Source: a virus
Length of the DNA: 34,333 bases
Strand: one strand, 5' to 3'
Virus record (IMG/VR): IMGVR_UViG_3300046665_000345
Span: 1-34,333 of that record
Part shown: in pieces, positions 3,786-17,124 of the stretch
Layout of the letters: every line of letters begins with the position of its first letter
Numbering within the stretch: the stretch's first letter is position 1
Notes under the pieces: generated by a model
The model's database searches: none
What the model saw: the letters and a program-made list of their open reading frames with translations, nothing else
What the model was told of the DNA's origin: nothing
Made by a program: the position numbers and the translations under genes

Positions 3786-4058
3786 ATGAGCACCACCACG
3801 AAGCCGAACCTGAAGCGCACCAAACCGTTGAAGGTCCCGTTGAACGATGTCGAGCGGGACCTGGTGCAGAAGTTCTGCCCTGGCCAGATCGCGCCGTTCG
3901 TTCGCAACCTGCTGCTGGCACACGTTCGCGGCGAAGCGAATCGTACCGTTGAGAAACCCCGGGCGGTACGTCCACGGCATGGCCATCAGCATGGCCATGT
4001 GCAGCGCTTCCCCGGCCGCGCAGCTGTGGCAGGTGGCTTTCGTCGCCTGCACCTTTAA
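3786..4058 (+). CDS. Small basic early protein, 90 aa
   Basis: A textbook AGGAGA ribosome site precedes the ATG at 3786. Residues 1-52 are Lys/Arg-rich, then carry a VERDLVQKFCPGQIAPFVRNLLL segment that looks like a folded helix pair. After about residue 55 the composition shifts to His/Gly/Arg with poor third-base bias, and the better coding signal moves to another frame (see the 3979 gene). The true C-terminus may therefore be shorter or affected by a frameshift. No family is recognised. Confidence 0.65.
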   Translation: MSTTTKPNLKRTKPLKVPLNDVERDLVQKFCPGQIAPFVRNLLLAHVRGEANRTVEKPRAVRPRHGHQHGHVQRFPGRAAVAGGFRRLHL

Positions 4059-11113: not shown

Positions 11114-11434
11114 ATGGGTATCGAAACCGGAACCGCCTTGCTTATCGCATCAGCCATTGGCGCAGGCACCGCTGCATACACCGCCAACAAGCAGGAAAAA
11201 GCGCAGGAAGCTGCAACCGAGCAGGCCACCAAGAACGCGAAGGCGACAGCCAAGGCGGCGGAAGAGGCCAGCAACAAGGCCAATAAGAAAGCCCCCGACA
11301 GTGGCGCGCTGCTGTCCGCGAACATCGCCGGCGGCAAGTCGGGCCAAGCCAGCACCATGCTGACGGGTGCCACCGGCATCGACCCGAGCGTGCTCCAACT
11401 TGGCAAGACCACGCTGCTGGGCGGGGGATCCTGA
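11114..11434 (+). CDS. Unknown virion-region protein with hydrophobic N-terminus
   Basis: A 106-residue protein with an N-terminal hydrophobic Ala/Gly segment (about 5-24), then a long Ala/Lys/Glu-rich helix (about 25-62) and a Gly/Ser-rich end. It looks like a small internal or connector-associated protein, comparable in style to the 183-aa internal protein further on. The stop overlaps the portal start (TGATG). No specific family is recognised. Confidence 0.7.
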   Translation: MGIETGTALLIASAIGAGTAAYTANKQEKAQEAATEQATKNAKATAKAAEEASNKANKKAPDSGALLSANIAGGKSGQASTMLTGATGIDPSVLQLGKTTLLGGGS

Positions 11435-13101
11435 TGGCGCCGCCGAACAACCGCAACCAGATCCTGATGCGCTGGGGCACGCTCAAGCGCGAGCGCGCCA
11501 GCTGGTTCGCGCACTGGCAGGACATCAGCCGCAACTTGCTGCCCCGTCAGGGGCGCTTCTTCATCGAGGACCGCAACAAGGGTGACAAGCGCCACAACGC
11601 AATCTACGACTCGACCGGCACGCGCGCGCTGCGCGTCCTGTCCGCCGGCATGATGGGCGGCGCCACCTCGCCGGCCCGGCCGTGGTTCCGCCTGAAGGTG
11701 AAGGACACCGAGGCCATGAAATCGCAGGCGGTGAAGCAGTGGCTGGACGACGTCACCGGCCTGATCCTGGCAGTCTTCCAGAAGTCGAACACCTACCGCT
11801 CGCTGCACAGCATCTACAACGAGATGGGCGGCTTCGGTACCGGCGCCGACCTGATCGTGCCCGACTATCGCGACGTGCTGCACCACACCCCGCTGACGAC
11901 CGGCGAATACTGCATCGCGACCGACTGGCGCGGCGAGGTGTGCACGATCTATCGCGAGTTCCAGACCACGGTGGGCGGCATGGTCAAGGAATTCGGGAAG
12001 GAAAAGGTCAGCAACACGGTGCGCTCGCTGTACGACCGTGGCAACCTCGATTCGTGGGTGACCGTCATCCATGCGATCGAGCCGCGCGAGGACCGCGACG
12101 TCACGAAGCTGGATTCGCTGAACATGGCGTGGTCCAGCACCTACTTCGAATCAGGCGTCAACGACAGCAAGTACCTGCGCGAATCCGGCTTCAAGCGCTT
12201 CCCCGCGATCTGCCCGCGCTGGGAGGTGGCCGGCGGCGACATCTACGGCAACGGCCCCGGCATGGAAGCGCTCGGCGACATCCGCCAGCTGCAGCACCAG
12301 AACCTGCGCAAGGGGCAGGCGATCGACTACCAGACGAAGCCACCGGTGCAGGTGCCCATCAGCATGAAGGGCCAGCCGATGGACATGCTGCCGGGCGGGA
12401 TCAGCTACTACGACCCGGCCACCGGCGGCGGCAAGGGCGCCATCCTGCCGGCGTGGCAGGTCAACTTGAACTTGGACCACCTGCGCCTCGACATGATCGA
12501 CGTGCGCGACCGCATCAAGGAATCGTTCTACTACGACCTGTTCCTGATGCTGTCGAACCTGGACAAGTCGGGCATGACTGCCACCGAGGTGGCCGAGCGT
12601 CACGAAGAAAAGCTGCTGATGCTGGGCCCGGTCATCGAGCGCCTGGACAACGAGGCGCTGAACCCGCTGGTGGACAACGCCTTCGACATGCTGCTGCAGG
12701 CGGGCGCTCTGCCGCCGCCCCCACCCGAGCTGCACGGCCAGCAGCTGGACGTCGAGTACACGTCGGTGCTGGCGCAGGCCCAGCGCGCTGTGGCCACGAA
12801 CGGCGTCGACCGCTTCGTCGGCAACCTCGGCCAGATCGCCACCTTTAAGCCGGATGTGCTCGACAAGTTCGATTCCGACAAGTGGGTCGACGCCTACAGC
12901 GACATGCTCGGCGTGCCGCCCAGCCTGATCACGCCATCGGACAAGGTAGCCATCATCCGCCAGCAGCGCGCACAGGCGCAGGCGCAGGCCGCCCAGCTCC
13001 AGGCTGCGGAGCAGGCGTCGGTCGCCGCGCGCAACCTCGGCGCCACCCCCACCGACGGAGGCAATGCAGCTTCCGACGTCATGAACATGTTCGCCCAGTA
13101 A
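11434..13101 (+). CDS. Portal / head-to-tail connecting protein
   Basis: The 555-residue product forms the dodecameric portal through which DNA enters and leaves the capsid. It is in the podovirus head-to-tail connector family: N-terminal RWGTLKRERASWFAHWQDISRNLLP, then DSTGTRALRVLSAGMMGGATSPARPWF, a central beta region, and a helical ALGDIRQLQHQNLRKGQAID segment. The C-terminus (about 500-555) is Gln/Ala-rich and coiled. It starts within the stop of the preceding gene. Length is typical for the family. Confidence 0.92.
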   Translation: MAPPNNRNQILMRWGTLKRERASWFAHWQDISRNLLPRQGRFFIEDRNKGDKRHNAIYDSTGTRALRVLSAGMMGGATSPARPWFRLKVKDTEAMKSQAVKQWLDDVTGLILAVFQKSNTYRSLHSIYNEMGGFGTGADLIVPDYRDVLHHTPLTTGEYCIATDWRGEVCTIYREFQTTVGGMVKEFGKEKVSNTVRSLYDRGNLDSWVTVIHAIEPREDRDVTKLDSLNMAWSSTYFESGVNDSKYLRESGFKRFPAICPRWEVAGGDIYGNGPGMEALGDIRQLQHQNLRKGQAIDYQTKPPVQVPISMKGQPMDMLPGGISYYDPATGGGKGAILPAWQVNLNLDHLRLDMIDVRDRIKESFYYDLFLMLSNLDKSGMTATEVAERHEEKLLMLGPVIERLDNEALNPLVDNAFDMLLQAGALPPPPPELHGQQLDVEYTSVLAQAQRAVATNGVDRFVGNLGQIATFKPDVLDKFDSDKWVDAYSDMLGVPPSLITPSDKVAIIRQQRAQAQAQAAQLQAAEQASVAARNLGATPTDGGNAASDVMNMFAQ

Positions 13102-13126: not shown

Positions 13127-13462
13127 GTGCCAAACCTCGCAATGACCGCCGAAGAGGCGAAGAAAGAATACGGCTACGAGCCCAGCGACACCGACAACCT
13201 GCCGAAGTACCCGTACGGGCTGTCGCTGTACCTGGACGACGACACGCTGAAGAAGCTGGGCATCACCGACCTGCCGAAGGTGGGCACCTCGATGCCGGCC
13301 ACGATCACCGTCACGGTGACCGGCACCAGCCAGCGTGCCACGCAGTCCGGCAAGGAAGGCGAGAACATGCGCACCTGCGTCGATCTGCAGATCACGGACA
13401 TGGACATCACCATGCCCACGAAGTCGGCCGCAGAAGTGCTGTACGGCAGCCCCAAGTCCTAA
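13127..13462 (+). CDS. Capsid staple/decoration-like protein
   Basis: A 111-residue protein with a GTG start at 13127 supported by AAGGAA eight bases upstream. It has a YPYGLSLYLDDDTLKKLGI segment and a beta-rich middle ending in a CVDLQITDMDI strand, a pattern seen in small podovirus capsid-stapling or decoration proteins. The C-terminus ends SAAEVLYGSPKS, a motif also found at the end of the scaffold protein. It lies between portal and capsid genes. The staple role is inferred from similarity by eye and position. Confidence 0.68.
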   Translation: MPNLAMTAEEAKKEYGYEPSDTDNLPKYPYGLSLYLDDDTLKKLGITDLPKVGTSMPATITVTVTGTSQRATQSGKEGENMRTCVDLQITDMDITMPTKSAAEVLYGSPKS

Positions 13463-13469
13463 TCCCCTC

Positions 13470-13501
13470 GTACACGTCCCACCCACGGCCGCGCCTACAG
13501 T
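13470..13501 (+). promoter_or_regulatory. Late promoter P2 (GTACACGTCC, 16 bp, TACAGT)
   Basis: GTACACGTCC (13470-13479), one change from the other decamers, then 16 bases and TACAGT (13496-13501). It precedes the fibre-like gene. Confidence 0.66.
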
Positions 13502-13555
13502 GGCGGCCGTATCGCTGTCTTCCCCCTGCCGCACACACCGCAAAGAGACAACTTC

Positions 13556-14434
13556 ATGAGCAAATACAAAATCCTGAACACCCCGGCGCTGCACGACCCC
13601 GTGAGCGGCGCGCTGGTCGGCTTTCTCGGCGCCGACGGCAAGGAATACTTGATCGGCGCGGCGCCCGGTGGCGTCGACGGGAACCCGGGAACCACGACCG
13701 GCATCACCAGCCTGACCGTCCAGGCCGCAGGATCGGCCGCCGGCACCACGCTGACCAACCCGCTGATTCAGGCCACCACGACCGTGAACAACTTCACGCA
13801 GTCGTCCATCCAGAACTTGAGCACCGGCGCCAGCGCATCGTCGGATCACATCGCCTACCCGAACAACAACACGAACGACCTGACCGGCTTTGCCGACATG
13901 GGCATGACGGGTTCGAACTTCGCGGATGCGGCGTACACCGTCACCATCGGGAACGAGGCCTATGTGTTCGCTTCCGCACCCAGCGGATCGGGCAAGTCCG
14001 GTTCGCTGGTGCTGGCCACCGACTCGTCGGGCATCAACAACAACATCGATTTCTACACCAACGGCTTCAACAAGGCGAAGACCGCGTATTCCGCGCGCAT
14101 CCTGGGCACCAACGGGCTGTTCCAGATCGCTGAAGGCCTAGCGCTGTCCGGCAAGAGCATCGTGAACAACGGCGCGACGGCAACATACACCGTGGCTGCG
14201 AAGAAGAACTACGCCTACCTCACCACCACTGCGGCATCCATCGCATTCACACTGCCGGCCGGCGCTGCCGCGATCGACGGCCTGCTGGTCACCGTCGTGA
14301 CGGATACCGCCGTCGCCGCGCTGACGTGGGCCAGCGCCGGCGCCACGTTCGTCGGCGCGCCGACGGCATCGTCGGCCAACACGCCCATCCGGATGATCTA
14401 CGACCACGCCAGCCTGAAGTGGTACCCGGCCTGA
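13556..14434 (+). CDS. Fibre-like structural protein in head module
   Basis: A 292-residue Thr/Ser/Ala/Gly-rich protein of beta-structure type. The N-terminal 40 residues look like an anchoring domain (ILNTPALHDPVSGALVGFLG), followed by a collagen-free GNPGTTTGI linker, repeat-like beta segments and a C-terminal domain (about 220-292) with LPAGAAAIDGLLVTVV and IYDHASLKWYPA, reminiscent of phage tail-fibre heads. Its position between decoration and scaffold genes suggests a head or neck fibre and not the main tailspike, which is present elsewhere. It has its own late promoter. Confidence 0.65.
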   Translation: MSKYKILNTPALHDPVSGALVGFLGADGKEYLIGAAPGGVDGNPGTTTGITSLTVQAAGSAAGTTLTNPLIQATTTVNNFTQSSIQNLSTGASASSDHIAYPNNNTNDLTGFADMGMTGSNFADAAYTVTIGNEAYVFASAPSGSGKSGSLVLATDSSGINNNIDFYTNGFNKAKTAYSARILGTNGLFQIAEGLALSGKSIVNNGATATYTVAAKKNYAYLTTTAASIAFTLPAGAAAIDGLLVTVVTDTAVAALTWASAGATFVGAPTASSANTPIRMIYDHASLKWYPA

Positions 14435-14742
14435 TGGTTGACTTCGACCCGCTCACCCCCGAGCTGCAGGACGCCCAGCGCGAGGCCGAAGCCAAGCGCC
14501 AGGCGCTCGCGAAGAAGCAGGAAGCCGCTGACTTCCAGTGGCTGATGAACGACCCGCGCGGCCGGCGCTTCGTGTGGCGCCAGCTCGCCGCGGCCGGCGT
14601 CTTCCTGTCCAGTTTTGACCCCGCCGCCATGACTATGGCTTTCAACGAAGGACGCCGTTCCGAAGGCCTGCGCCTGCTGGCGCTGGTAATGGAGCAGTGC
14701 CCCGATCTCTACGCAACCATGATGAAGGAGCAATCGCAATGA
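14434..14742 (+). CDS. Bbp19-like phage protein
   Basis: A 102-residue protein matching the Bbp19-type domain: DFQWLMNDPRGRRFVWRQL, then an AAGVFLSS segment, MAFNEGRRSEGLRLLALV and a C-terminal PDLYATMMKE. The family is found just upstream of the scaffold in BPP-1-like phages; its exact role is not established. It overlaps the preceding stop (TGATG) and its own stop overlaps the next start (ATGA), so translation is coupled on both sides. Confidence 0.82.
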   Translation: MVDFDPLTPELQDAQREAEAKRQALAKKQEAADFQWLMNDPRGRRFVWRQLAAAGVFLSSFDPAAMTMAFNEGRRSEGLRLLALVMEQCPDLYATMMKEQSQ

Positions 14743-15479
14743 CCCTGATGACCGAAGCCGCAGCCGCTGCCCCTGCCACTGCAGCACCCGCAGCCCCTGC
14801 CGCCGCCGCACCGGCCGCCGGCGGTGCACCAGCAGCGCCAGAAGCTGGCCAGACCGATGCATCGGCCGCCGCTGGTGCCCCGGCCGCTGGCGCCCCTGCT
14901 GCCGGTGATGCTGGTGCTGCAGGTGGCGAGACCGGCCAGCCTGGCGAGAAGACCGACGACCAGAAAGCCGCCGACGAAGCCGCGGCGAAAGCAGCCGAGG
15001 AAGCCGCGAAGGCCGCCGGCGCCCCCGAGAAGTACGAGCCCTTCAAGGCGCCCGAAGGCGCCGCCCTGGATGCCGAGGTGATCACGCAGTTCGAACAGGC
15101 GGCGCGCGAACTGAACCTGCCGCAGGACAAGGCGCAGCAGCTGATCGACAAGATGGCGCCAGTCATCGCGCAGCAGCAGATCCAGCAGGTCGAGAAGTTC
15201 CGGACCGAGTGGCACGCGCAGTCCACGGCCGACAAGGAATTCGGCGGCGACAAGCTGGCCGAGAACTTGGGCTATGCGAACAAGGCGCTGACCGCGTTCG
15301 CGAGCGATGACCTCAAGACCTTCCTAAAAGACAGCGCGCTGGGCAACCACCCCGAGTTCGTGCGCTTCATGGTCCGCGCCGGCAAGGCCATGAGCGAAGA
15401 CAAGATCGTCATTGGCGGCGCCACCACCGCGCCGCGAACGGCCGCCGAAGTCCTGTACGGCGGCGGCGCGAAGAAGTAA
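14739..15479 (+). CDS. Capsid scaffolding protein
   Basis: This 246-residue protein is encoded immediately before the capsid gene, as scaffolds are. The N-terminal 65 residues are an Ala/Pro/Gly low-complexity tail, followed by acidic Lys/Ala helices, a PEKYEPFKAPEGAALDAEV segment, a QFEQAARELNLPQDKAQQLIDK helix and a C-terminal helical region. It ends RTAAEVLYGGGAKK, a likely capsid-binding tail. Scaffold proteins guide assembly of the shell and leave before or during packaging. The assignment is from composition, motif pattern and position. Confidence 0.83.
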   Translation: MTLMTEAAAAAPATAAPAAPAAAAPAAGGAPAAPEAGQTDASAAAGAPAAGAPAAGDAGAAGGETGQPGEKTDDQKAADEAAAKAAEEAAKAAGAPEKYEPFKAPEGAALDAEVITQFEQAARELNLPQDKAQQLIDKMAPVIAQQQIQQVEKFRTEWHAQSTADKEFGGDKLAENLGYANKALTAFASDDLKTFLKDSALGNHPEFVRFMVRAGKAMSEDKIVIGGATTAPRTAAEVLYGGGAKK

Positions 15480-15588: not shown

Positions 15589-16608
15589 ATGGCACTTCTC
15601 GCAGCTGGCGCCCTCACCCTCGCCGACTGGGCAAAGCGTCTCGATCCCGACGGCCAGGTGCCGCAGGTGGCCGAGCTCCTGTCGCAGACGAACGAGATTC
15701 TGGAAGATGCAGTTTTCAAGGAAGGCAACCTGCCGACCGGTCATCGCGTCACCATCCGTACCGGCCTGCCGCAGGTCTTCTATCGCATGATCAACCAGGG
15801 CGTCCCGACGTCCAAGTCGACCAGCACGCAGGTGGACGAAGCATGCGGCATCCTCGAAGCCCGCTCGCACATCGACGTCGAGCTGGTCAAGCTGAACGGC
15901 AACGAAGCCGCGTTCCGCCTGTCAGAAGATGAAGCGTTCATCGAGGCGATGAACCAGACCATGGCCGGCGCCATGTTCTACGGTAACCCGGGCACGGACC
16001 CGCGCCAGTTCCTCGGCCTGCAAACCCGCTACAGCTCGCTGAGCGCAGGCAACGGCCAGAACATCCTGGACGCCGGCGGCACGGGTTCGAACAACACGTC
16101 GATCTACCTGGTGGTCTGGGGCGAGAACACCGTGTTCTGCCCTTTCCCGAAAGGTTCGAAAGCCGGCCTGCAGCACCAGGACCTGGGCGAAGAGTCGGTG
16201 CCGGACGCAAACGGCAACTTCTTCCAGGCTGTCCGCGCGCTGTACCAGTGGAAGAACGGTCTGGTGGTCAAGGACTGGCGCTACGTGGTCCGCATCTGCA
16301 ATATCAACGTGTCGGACCTGACCGGCCAGACGGCGACGCAGGCCGCCGCCGCCGCCACCGCGATCATCAACCTGATGATCCGCGCCATGGACCGCCCGCC
16401 CAACCTGGCGATGGGCCGCCCGGTGTTCTACGCGAATCGCACCGTGTACTCGATGCTGCGCGTGGCCGCGCTCAACAAATCGAGTAACGCGCTGTCGATC
16501 GAGAGCGCCACCAACCAGTTCGGCAACGCGTACAAGATGACCACGTTCATGGGCATCCCGCTTCGCAAGGTCGACCAGCTGCTGAACACCGAGTCGCGCG
16601 TCGTCTAA
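15589..16608 (+). CDS. Major capsid protein (BPP-1 Bbp17-like)
   Basis: A 339-residue HK97-fold shell protein of the BPP-1 type. Diagnostic segments are the N-terminal LTLADWAKRLDPDGQVPQVAELL, then NEILEDAVFKEGNLPTGHRVTIRTGLP, a central FYGNPGTDPRQFLGLQTRY and a C-terminal MGRPVFYANRTVYSML followed by MGIPLRKVDQLLNTE. It has its own promoter and a separate leader, fitting the need for high expression. There is no sign of an N-terminal cleaved scaffold; a separate scaffold gene precedes it. Confidence 0.94.
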   Translation: MALLAAGALTLADWAKRLDPDGQVPQVAELLSQTNEILEDAVFKEGNLPTGHRVTIRTGLPQVFYRMINQGVPTSKSTSTQVDEACGILEARSHIDVELVKLNGNEAAFRLSEDEAFIEAMNQTMAGAMFYGNPGTDPRQFLGLQTRYSSLSAGNGQNILDAGGTGSNNTSIYLVVWGENTVFCPFPKGSKAGLQHQDLGEESVPDANGNFFQAVRALYQWKNGLVVKDWRYVVRICNINVSDLTGQTATQAAAAATAIINLMIRAMDRPPNLAMGRPVFYANRTVYSMLRVAALNKSSNALSIESATNQFGNAYKMTTFMGIPLRKVDQLLNTESRVV

Positions 16609-16635: not shown

Positions 16636-17124
16636 ATGATCCTCGATGCAGCAATGCTTCTCTCCGGTTCGATCAGCGCTTCGGGCGTCCTGACCGGCCA
16701 ATCCGTGAACGGTGCGGGTTCCATCCTGTCGTCCAACACGATCGACATGGCACCGTTGACCACTGGCGGCAATCAAGCCACCGACACCGGCGTCGGCGAA
16801 GAGTTGTATATCGACTTCTCGGTGCTGACCGCGCCGACCGTCGGTACCAGCGTGCGCTTCCAGCTGATCCAGGCCGATGACGCCGCGCTGACGTCGAACG
16901 TGCAGGTGATCAGCCAGACCGATGACATCCCGATCGCCAACCTGCCGGCCGGCACCATCGTGCCGTTGCACTGGGATCCGGCAGCGCCGTACCCGCCGAA
17001 GCGCTACGTGGGCGCGCGCTACGTGAACGTGGGCGCCATCGCTACCTTCTCGGTGGCCGCCGCCGTCACGAAGAACGTGCAGACCCGCCAGACCAGCCTG
17101 AAGTCGGGCTACACCGTCAGCTAA
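16636..17124 (+). CDS. Bbp16-like capsid cement protein
   Basis: The 162-residue product follows the capsid gene and matches the Bbp16 cement family: an N-terminal ILDAAMLLSGS start, a central ELYIDFSVLTAPT strand and a conserved PLHWDPAAPYPPKRYVGARY segment. Such proteins bind the outside of the mature shell and stabilise it. An AAGGAA-type site precedes the ATG. A G+C-rich hairpin lies just downstream. Confidence 0.88.
   Translation: MILDAAMLLSGSISASGVLTGQSVNGAGSILSSNTIDMAPLTTGGNQATDTGVGEELYIDFSVLTAPTVGTSVRFQLIQADDAALTSNVQVISQTDDIPIANLPAGTIVPLHWDPAAPYPPKRYVGARYVNVGAIATFSVAAAVTKNVQTRQTSLKSGYTVS

Follow-up and report, generated by a model that had tools for sequence, protein, structure and literature searches.

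Analysis of the virus record IMGVR_UViG_3300046665_000345 of IMG/VR (positions 1 to 34,333; this whole stretch of 34,333 nucleotides is called the window below) showed that two proteins encoded in its head gene cassette, a Gp10-like protein and a scaffold-like protein, share the C-terminal sequence AAEVLYG. The record, 34 kb of viral DNA, has a head cassette of the BPP-1/epsilon15 type. Both tails were present as described in the initial annotation, and comparison with relatives confirmed that the shared tail is real and more general than two proteins of one phage. With moderate confidence, we interpret this tail, A-x-x-[L/F/M/I]-Tyr-[G/P/S], as a short C-terminal docking tag for one shared site, probably located on the inner face of the major capsid protein (MCP) in the procapsid. 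The features concerned are:

13127..13462, plus strand: Gp10-like ('staple-like') protein of 111 amino acids (aa), a homologue of epsilon15 gp10 and BPP-1 Bbp20.
13424..13459, plus strand: C-terminal tag of the Gp10-like protein, SAAEVLYGSPKS, read directly from the sequence.
14739..15479, plus strand: scaffold-like protein of 246 aa, a homologue of Bbp18 / epsilon15 gp6, with a putative scaffold role.
15438..15476, plus strand: C-terminal tag of the scaffold-like protein, TAAEVLYGGGAKK, read directly from the sequence.

The Gp10-like protein ends in ...KSAAEVLYGSPKS and the scaffold in ...RTAAEVLYGGGAKK; in both, AAEVLYG (codons 13427-13447 and 15441-15461, respectively) is followed by a few more residues. 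Of the 21 bases of these seven codons, 19 are identical between the two genes, against 22 of the 60 bases preceding them, which gives no indication that the ends as a whole were duplicated recently. The shared heptapeptide is in itself unremarkable: a second pair among the 13 genes of the window included in the comparison likewise has a 7-residue string in common.

Relatives were collected and translated in all frames, and homologues were found with core profiles built without the tails. Lists obtained with iterated whole-protein hidden Markov models, which drifted into out-of-frame GC-rich open reading frames (ORFs), were dropped in favor of these profiles. For the tail counts, a single sequence was kept wherever the last 90 residues were identical (124 to 93 Gp10-like proteins; 223 to 145 scaffolds); several loci lie on one contig, for example L001 and L083, and the removal of duplicates relied on sequence rather than on contig name. 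Behind the core, the motif A..[LFMIV]Y was found in 91/93 unique Gp10-like proteins and in 135/145 unique scaffolds, and the pair [LFMIV]Y in 93/93 and 144/145, respectively. Conservation of the tail in both proteins across relatives, which the initial annotation had named as a check, was thus observed, and in most relatives the motif was missing from neither protein.

Within the last 22 residues, the stretch used for the controls, A..[LFMIV]Y was present in 84/93 Gp10-like proteins and 135/145 scaffolds. Shuffling of these residues gave means of 2.7 (of 93) and 2.8 (of 145), and a single case was found among 786 control tails (portal, Bbp19, MCP, decoration, tail tubular, stabilisation and terminase proteins of the same loci); A..[hyd]Y, where hyd is a hydrophobic residue, occurred in 0/127 Bbp19-like and 0/129 portal tails. 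The looser [LFMIV]Y was a poor marker, being common in decoration (78/124) and Bbp19-like (32/127) tails, and for this reason only the full motif was counted. Two candidates for further tagged proteins were rejected: the decoration proteins, which often end in KFYASGF, matching the looser motif, but have A..[LFMIV]Y in 1/124 cases, and the 292-aa protein of the window (13556-14434), in whose end, ...SLKWYPA, the Ala at -4 is missing and a Trp precedes the Tyr.

The tail Tyr was the sole invariant column in an alignment of 66 Gp10-like proteins (that of the window and 65 of the 84 contig proteins listed), and was more conserved than any position of the folded part. Among 58 aligned scaffolds (that of the window and 57 of 134) the tail residues A236, L239 and Y240 were at least 90% conserved. 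AlphaFold2 (AF2) models predicted a tail helix up to the Tyr in both proteins, at 235-239 in the scaffold and at 101-106 in the Gp10-like protein. Two tail segments in tandem, for example KSLYGDDSEGTRIDNISNALYGGN, were seen in the Gp10-like proteins of L219, L225, L324 and ctEw122 (L236); in those of L154, L120 and L167 the second tandem segment ends in MLG or LLG, without Tyr.

Tails of the two proteins were more alike within one phage than between phages. With tails anchored on the first hydrophobic-aromatic pair from the core end onward, own-phage pairs reached 15.56 and cross-phage pairs 12.56 (p=0.0002; 93 distinct pairs). The tests were repeated after the scaffold cores had been clustered and each cluster reduced to a single phage: for 33 clusters, p was 0.0026 over positions -6..+4 and 0.0044 without the anchor positions; for 14 clusters, 0.0166 (-6..+4), 0.0068 (-5..+1) and 0.0154 (without anchors); and for 7 clusters, 0.030, 0.0176 and 0.0272, in the same order. 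Co-variation was strongest at positions -3 and -2. Pairs of scaffold and Gp10-like tails are, for phiV10, SAAEVLYGK and SAAETLYGNGGE; for BPP-1, ARRLYAASNMNP (ARRLYAASNM) and, in Bbp20, AQRLYGASSMSA (AQRLYGASSM); for epsilon15, ...SAFYPKK and, in gp10, ...DAFYPDGEDD; for BcepC6B, whose scaffold fits phrog_3742 better than phrog_458, AAKLYDKS and AAKFYANTPTT; and for the IMG/VR locus L164, NDARSLYPNSDLK and TDARSLYPNSTLI. The two tails were less alike in BL94 and ctQRb9. The residues after the Tyr differ, the Gp10-like proteins having mostly LYG and the scaffolds mostly LYP or LYS. Such co-variation within a phage fits the binding of both tails to one shared partner.

This partner is not the Gp10-like protein itself as far as the scaffold is concerned. 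Among 77 unique full loci, defined by portal, scaffold and MCP genes and at least 2.5 kb beyond, 22 had no profile-detected Gp10-like gene (at least one of them, L039, does have a sub-threshold Gp10-like homologue), and the scaffolds of these 22 loci had A..[hyd]Y in 20 cases and [hyd]Y in all 22. The scaffold tail is kept where no Gp10-like gene is detected, and is therefore not there to bind the Gp10-like protein. No Gp10-like gene was seen in the fetched stretch of seven named phages, Ab31, Shamal, vir555, Acinetobacter 4316, HU1, BUCT708 and PfDIW6; the scaffolds of the first four end in RMYP, VFYG, VLYP and LWYG, respectively. T7 gp9 has no tag.

The Gp10-like gene was located between the portal and scaffold genes in 50/55 full loci and after the MCP gene in 5/55, among them epsilon15 and phiV10. 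The more frequent arrangement could point to the portal vertex, or to some other head component of low copy number, as the binding partner of the tag, to which the scaffold and the accessory proteins would be recruited; co-variation needs just one common partner, whichever it is. We regard this alternative as possible but rather unlikely: gene order is weak evidence either way, the Gp10-like proteins encoded after the MCP gene are still tailed, and in the precedent of 80alpha the shared tail is described as binding the capsid protein (PMC5644958). The most likely docking partner is the MCP of the window (15589..16608).

The initial annotation had placed the tag on the Gp10-like protein and the scaffold; both carry it, but it is not limited to them. 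Three further small tagged families, of 55, 52 and 142 aa, were found in BPP-1/epsilon15-type head cassettes. The 55-aa protein corresponds to phrog_16028; it matched 84 phage records, for the most part those of cyanophages and pelagiphages. Among the 60 of these 84 matches listed, three align past residue 44: the proteins of DC33 and ctQRb9, both phages with a BPP-1-type MCP, are tagged, and that of P-RSP2, aligned over residues 1-53, is untagged. Three other homologues that were read have SAKTAK in place of the tag. The 55-aa family was tagged in 6/6 unique loci with BPP-1-type head genes and in 0/62 without them (Fisher 9e-9), and the 142-aa family in 2/3 and 0/58, respectively (Fisher p=0.0016), related loci being treated as independent in both tests.

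These loci were examined with 3.5 kb flanks, so that head genes farther off would be missed; of 101 and of 592 confirmed stretches, the 80 best were used in each case. Loci without a closed ORF were dropped (6/80 and 1/85), and rows with identical last 60 residues were merged. To the 55-aa set L153, L174, L130, L224 and L235 were added as known or believed to be tagged; L130 proved to be without such an ORF. The scan itself yielded L323, L324 and L322 as tagged 55-aa loci, the last of these lying on the contig of L224 and being pooled with that locus; BPP-1-type head genes are present in all three. In the 142-aa set, L010 is the query and L245 (together with L246, which has an identical scaffold tail) is the independent case; L275 was counted among the loci with head genes through a partial Gp10-like core match only, and L257, which has a portal homologue only and no tag, among those without. 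The tagged 55-aa proteins may be the product of one or two events.

The 52-aa protein corresponds to phrog_16759, with mainly jumbo phage matches, of which the 60 listed out of 88 cover residues 1-35 to 1-37 only. Its tagged copies come from loci fetched by MCP or scaffold; the copies of phiKZ and BUCT555 have no such tail. The 142-aa tails are STAKTLYPNDN in L010 and KDIAKKMYPSMKK in L245, and the scaffold tails of the same loci are NTAKSLYPNQS and KDLAKSMFPNMN, respectively. For the L245 tail (DIAKKMYPSM) the own scaffold (DLAKSMFPNM) was the best match of 146 tails, and for that of L010 (STAKTLYPND, against NTAKSLYPNQ in its own scaffold) two of the 146 tails matched better. Two adjoining small basic genes of unrelated families, one mostly from cyanophages and pelagiphages and the other from jumbo phages, are both tagged in L153 (3850-4248) and L224 (4425-4916).

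Several observations speak against a common docking tag. The co-variation is modest: over the 93 pairs, own tails rank on average near percentile 0.60, where 0.5 would be expected, the p values of the 25 tests are uncorrected, and no significant co-variation was detected at positions +1..+4. The tail helix of the Gp10-like model has low confidence (block mean 61). The tags of the 55-aa and 52-aa families are not matched to the scaffold of the same phage, since 116, 125 and 136 of the 146 tails matched better. Among the named phages, the scaffold ends of HU1 (VMFG) and BUCT708 (RMWP) have Phe and Trp, respectively, in place of Tyr, and that of PfDIW6 (TIVDAFS) is without a hydrophobic-Tyr pair in all three frames read. 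Finally, in L275 an ORF starting at 3856 (+) has a distant, partial Gp10-like core (E 5.8e-8) and no tag; this core adjoins a protein of the 142-aa family, likewise untagged, and no BPP-1-type MCP was present within the 3.5 kb flanks.

The modest percentile of own pairs and the lack of co-variation at +1..+4, as well as the Ala- and Gly-rich ends in high-GC genomes, could be accounted for if the likeness of the tails were due to convergence or compositional bias, with no shared partner. That the motif occurred in 1/786 control tails, that the shuffle means were near 3 of 93 and of 145, that the tail Tyr is invariant and that the tag is found on homologues of untagged proteins make this explanation highly improbable, and a docking tag for one shared partner remains the interpretation that we favor.

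The Gp10-like protein belongs to PF21628 (E 2.3e-14; 53.9 bits, against a gathering score of 27) and to phrog_825 (E 1.5e-20). It was matched by phmmer to gp10 of 3j40_N (E 5.8e-7) and by tblastn to bbp20, and the family members of epsilon15 (DAFYP) and BPP-1 (AQRLYG) have the tail at the same place. When the Gp10-like profile was compared with the PDB at E<=1, no chain other than 3j40 gp10 was matched, and the protein of the window matched neither 3j4u_H nor 8cjz_B at that threshold; Bbp16 and epsilon15 gp8 belong to a different family, phrog_427, and homology of the Gp10-like protein to this staple/cement class, which has a jellyroll fold, was not found. As to fold, two long strands are seen in the AF2 model (mean predicted local distance difference test score, pLDDT, 81.7), whose tail, with the short helix already mentioned, is of low confidence, and a Foldseek search with this model gave no PDB fold at E<=0.001.

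These results bear on the name given to the protein. Scaffolds lie inside the capsid and staples outside. The initial annotation had taken the first protein for a decoration or staple protein, and if this were correct it might be an outer staple which competes with, or succeeds, the scaffold on one capsid surface in maturation: gp10 is the protein deposited in 3J40, and a shared tail fits competition for a single site. We consider this quite improbable. Apart from the opposite locations of scaffolds and staples, the 111-aa gp10 model is reported to misfit the epsilon15 staple density, which a 130-aa protein fits, and the original gp10 staple assignment was judged likely incorrect (PMC9207676). 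The 130-aa protein is not named as gp8 in the main text of PMC9207676; epsilon15 gp8 has 130 aa, and matches the decoration protein 8cjz_B (8e-33) and the cement protein 3j4u_H (1e-14), chains that the Gp10-like profile did not match. The cement protein of BPP-1 is reported to be Bbp16, by mass spectrometry and gene deletion (PMC3863775), and the window has a separate Bbp16-type gene, at 16636-17124.

The designation as a staple is not supported: the protein belongs to the epsilon15 gp10/Bbp20 family, which is probably not an outer staple. Given this, and the separate Bbp16-type gene, the docking surface is more likely the inner face, where the scaffold is. Of the earlier proposal that both proteins dock on the same capsid surface, we retain the single shared partner, which the co-variation fits; the scaffold and the Gp10-like protein may also compete, or one may hand over to the other. 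Proteomics of infectious particles putatively identified gp10 (PMC9207676), so that the Gp10-like protein may remain in the virion. The staple chains of 3J40, deposited as gp10, probably have the wrong sequence, epsilon15 gp8 being better by length and by homology to 3j4u_H and 8cjz_B, and the name of PF21628, 'Major coat protein-like', may derive from this doubtful assignment.

The product of 14739-15479 matches phrog_458 (E 2.1e-56), which is labelled 'protease' in PHROGs, and its gene is located directly 5' of the MCP gene; by profile match and position together it is a scaffold-like protein of phrog_458, for which we infer the role of scaffold. Only helices are present in the AF2 model (mean pLDDT 72.9), whose N-terminus is of low confidence; at the C-terminus, a helix-free stretch (222-234) is followed by the short helix 235-239 and then by Tyr240. 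No relative of this scaffold was found in the PDB (best E 0.24). Proteins of phrog_458 are often recorded as protease or endoprotease; the model resembles a helical scaffold.

The label of the family could indicate that the tail serves not for docking but for recognition by a phage protease or for turnover by the host; short C-terminal signals recognised by host proteases exist. This we hold to be improbable. The scaffold model is all-helical, with the low-confidence N-terminus noted above, and turnover alone would not predict matching tails within a phage. In BPP-1 the MCP and the cement protein were reported to be uncleaved (PMC3863775), a statement that covers neither the scaffold nor Bbp20.

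The other genes of the cassette were assigned as follows:

11434..13101, plus strand: portal protein, PF12236 (E 2.8e-175).
13556-14434: 292-aa protein, no family match.
14434..14742, plus strand: Bbp19-like protein, PF25181 (E 1.2e-15).
15589..16608, plus strand: MCP of the GP7 / Bbp17 family, PF20911 (E 2.4e-136); phmmer match to 3j4u_A (E 4e-96).
16636..17124, plus strand: protein of the Bbp16 / epsilon15 gp8 PHROG, phrog_427 (E 2e-9).

The profile of phrog_427 also takes Bbp16 (3e-41) and epsilon15 gp8 (2e-44), and pairwise BLASTP of the 16636-17124 protein against Bbp16 was not significant (E 0.11); this protein is likely the cement protein. A small protein encoded 5' of the portal gene (11114-11434) has a separate conserved C-terminal motif, ...TMLTGxxGxdpxxLxLGkxTLLGg, and similar ends are found in BPP-1 Bbp22, in epsilon15 gp3, and in Ab31 and HU1.

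In the mechanism that we propose, the tag would sit at a flexible end of the scaffold, of the Gp10-like protein and, in some relatives, of the small proteins, and would attach all of them to the capsid-forming machinery at a common site, for which the inner face of the GP7-type MCP in the procapsid is the most likely candidate. Through this site the scaffold would nucleate the shell and hold it together; the Gp10-like protein and the small proteins would be brought into the same shell, or kept inside it, via the tag.

A similar arrangement has been described for 80alpha and SaPI1: in the structure of the 80alpha scaffold, the 16 C-terminal residues form a helix and a hook that extends to a cleft of the capsid protein, and the RIIK motif, which this scaffold has in common with SaPI1 CpmB, binds a single capsid protein site (PMC5644958). 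The tail of that system is bound between the A and P domains of the capsid protein and at its N-arm. There, as here, the same short C-terminal motif is found on otherwise unrelated proteins; the RIIK motif follows an amphipathic helix, and the tail helices predicted for both proteins of the window are reminiscent of the helix and hook. The two systems differ in the motif, which is AxxLY and not RIIK (no RIIK was seen among the tails printed), and in that the tag is shared within one phage and extends to small proteins of relatives; in addition, binding is known for 80alpha and SaPI1 and predicted here. The capsid targeting sequence of T4 and the cargo-loading peptides of encapsulins are also short terminal peptides which bring cargo into an HK97-fold shell; the T4 signal is N-terminal and cleaved, and the encapsulin peptide has another sequence. 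The AxxLY tag would resemble these signals in function. No published description of such a tag was found by titles and the beginnings of abstracts, a search that took in few subscription papers and is no proof that the tag is unpublished.

More tentatively, and with somewhat less than even confidence, we suggest that any protein gaining an AxxLY[G/P/S] tag may enter the procapsid via the MCP pocket used by the scaffold. Small proteins of cyanophages and jumbo phages would then become internal head proteins by the acquisition of about 10 residues, and the tag would list the cargo of each head. These findings suggest a testable function for a family which has doubtfully been called a staple, and point to the contact made by the scaffold in heads like those of epsilon15 and BPP-1, a model type whose scaffold had no solved relative among the PDB entries searched. 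They also offer a sequence rule for spotting proteins loaded into epsilon15/BPP-1-type heads and, if the tag works on foreign proteins, would provide a simple means of filling a phage shell with chosen cargo.

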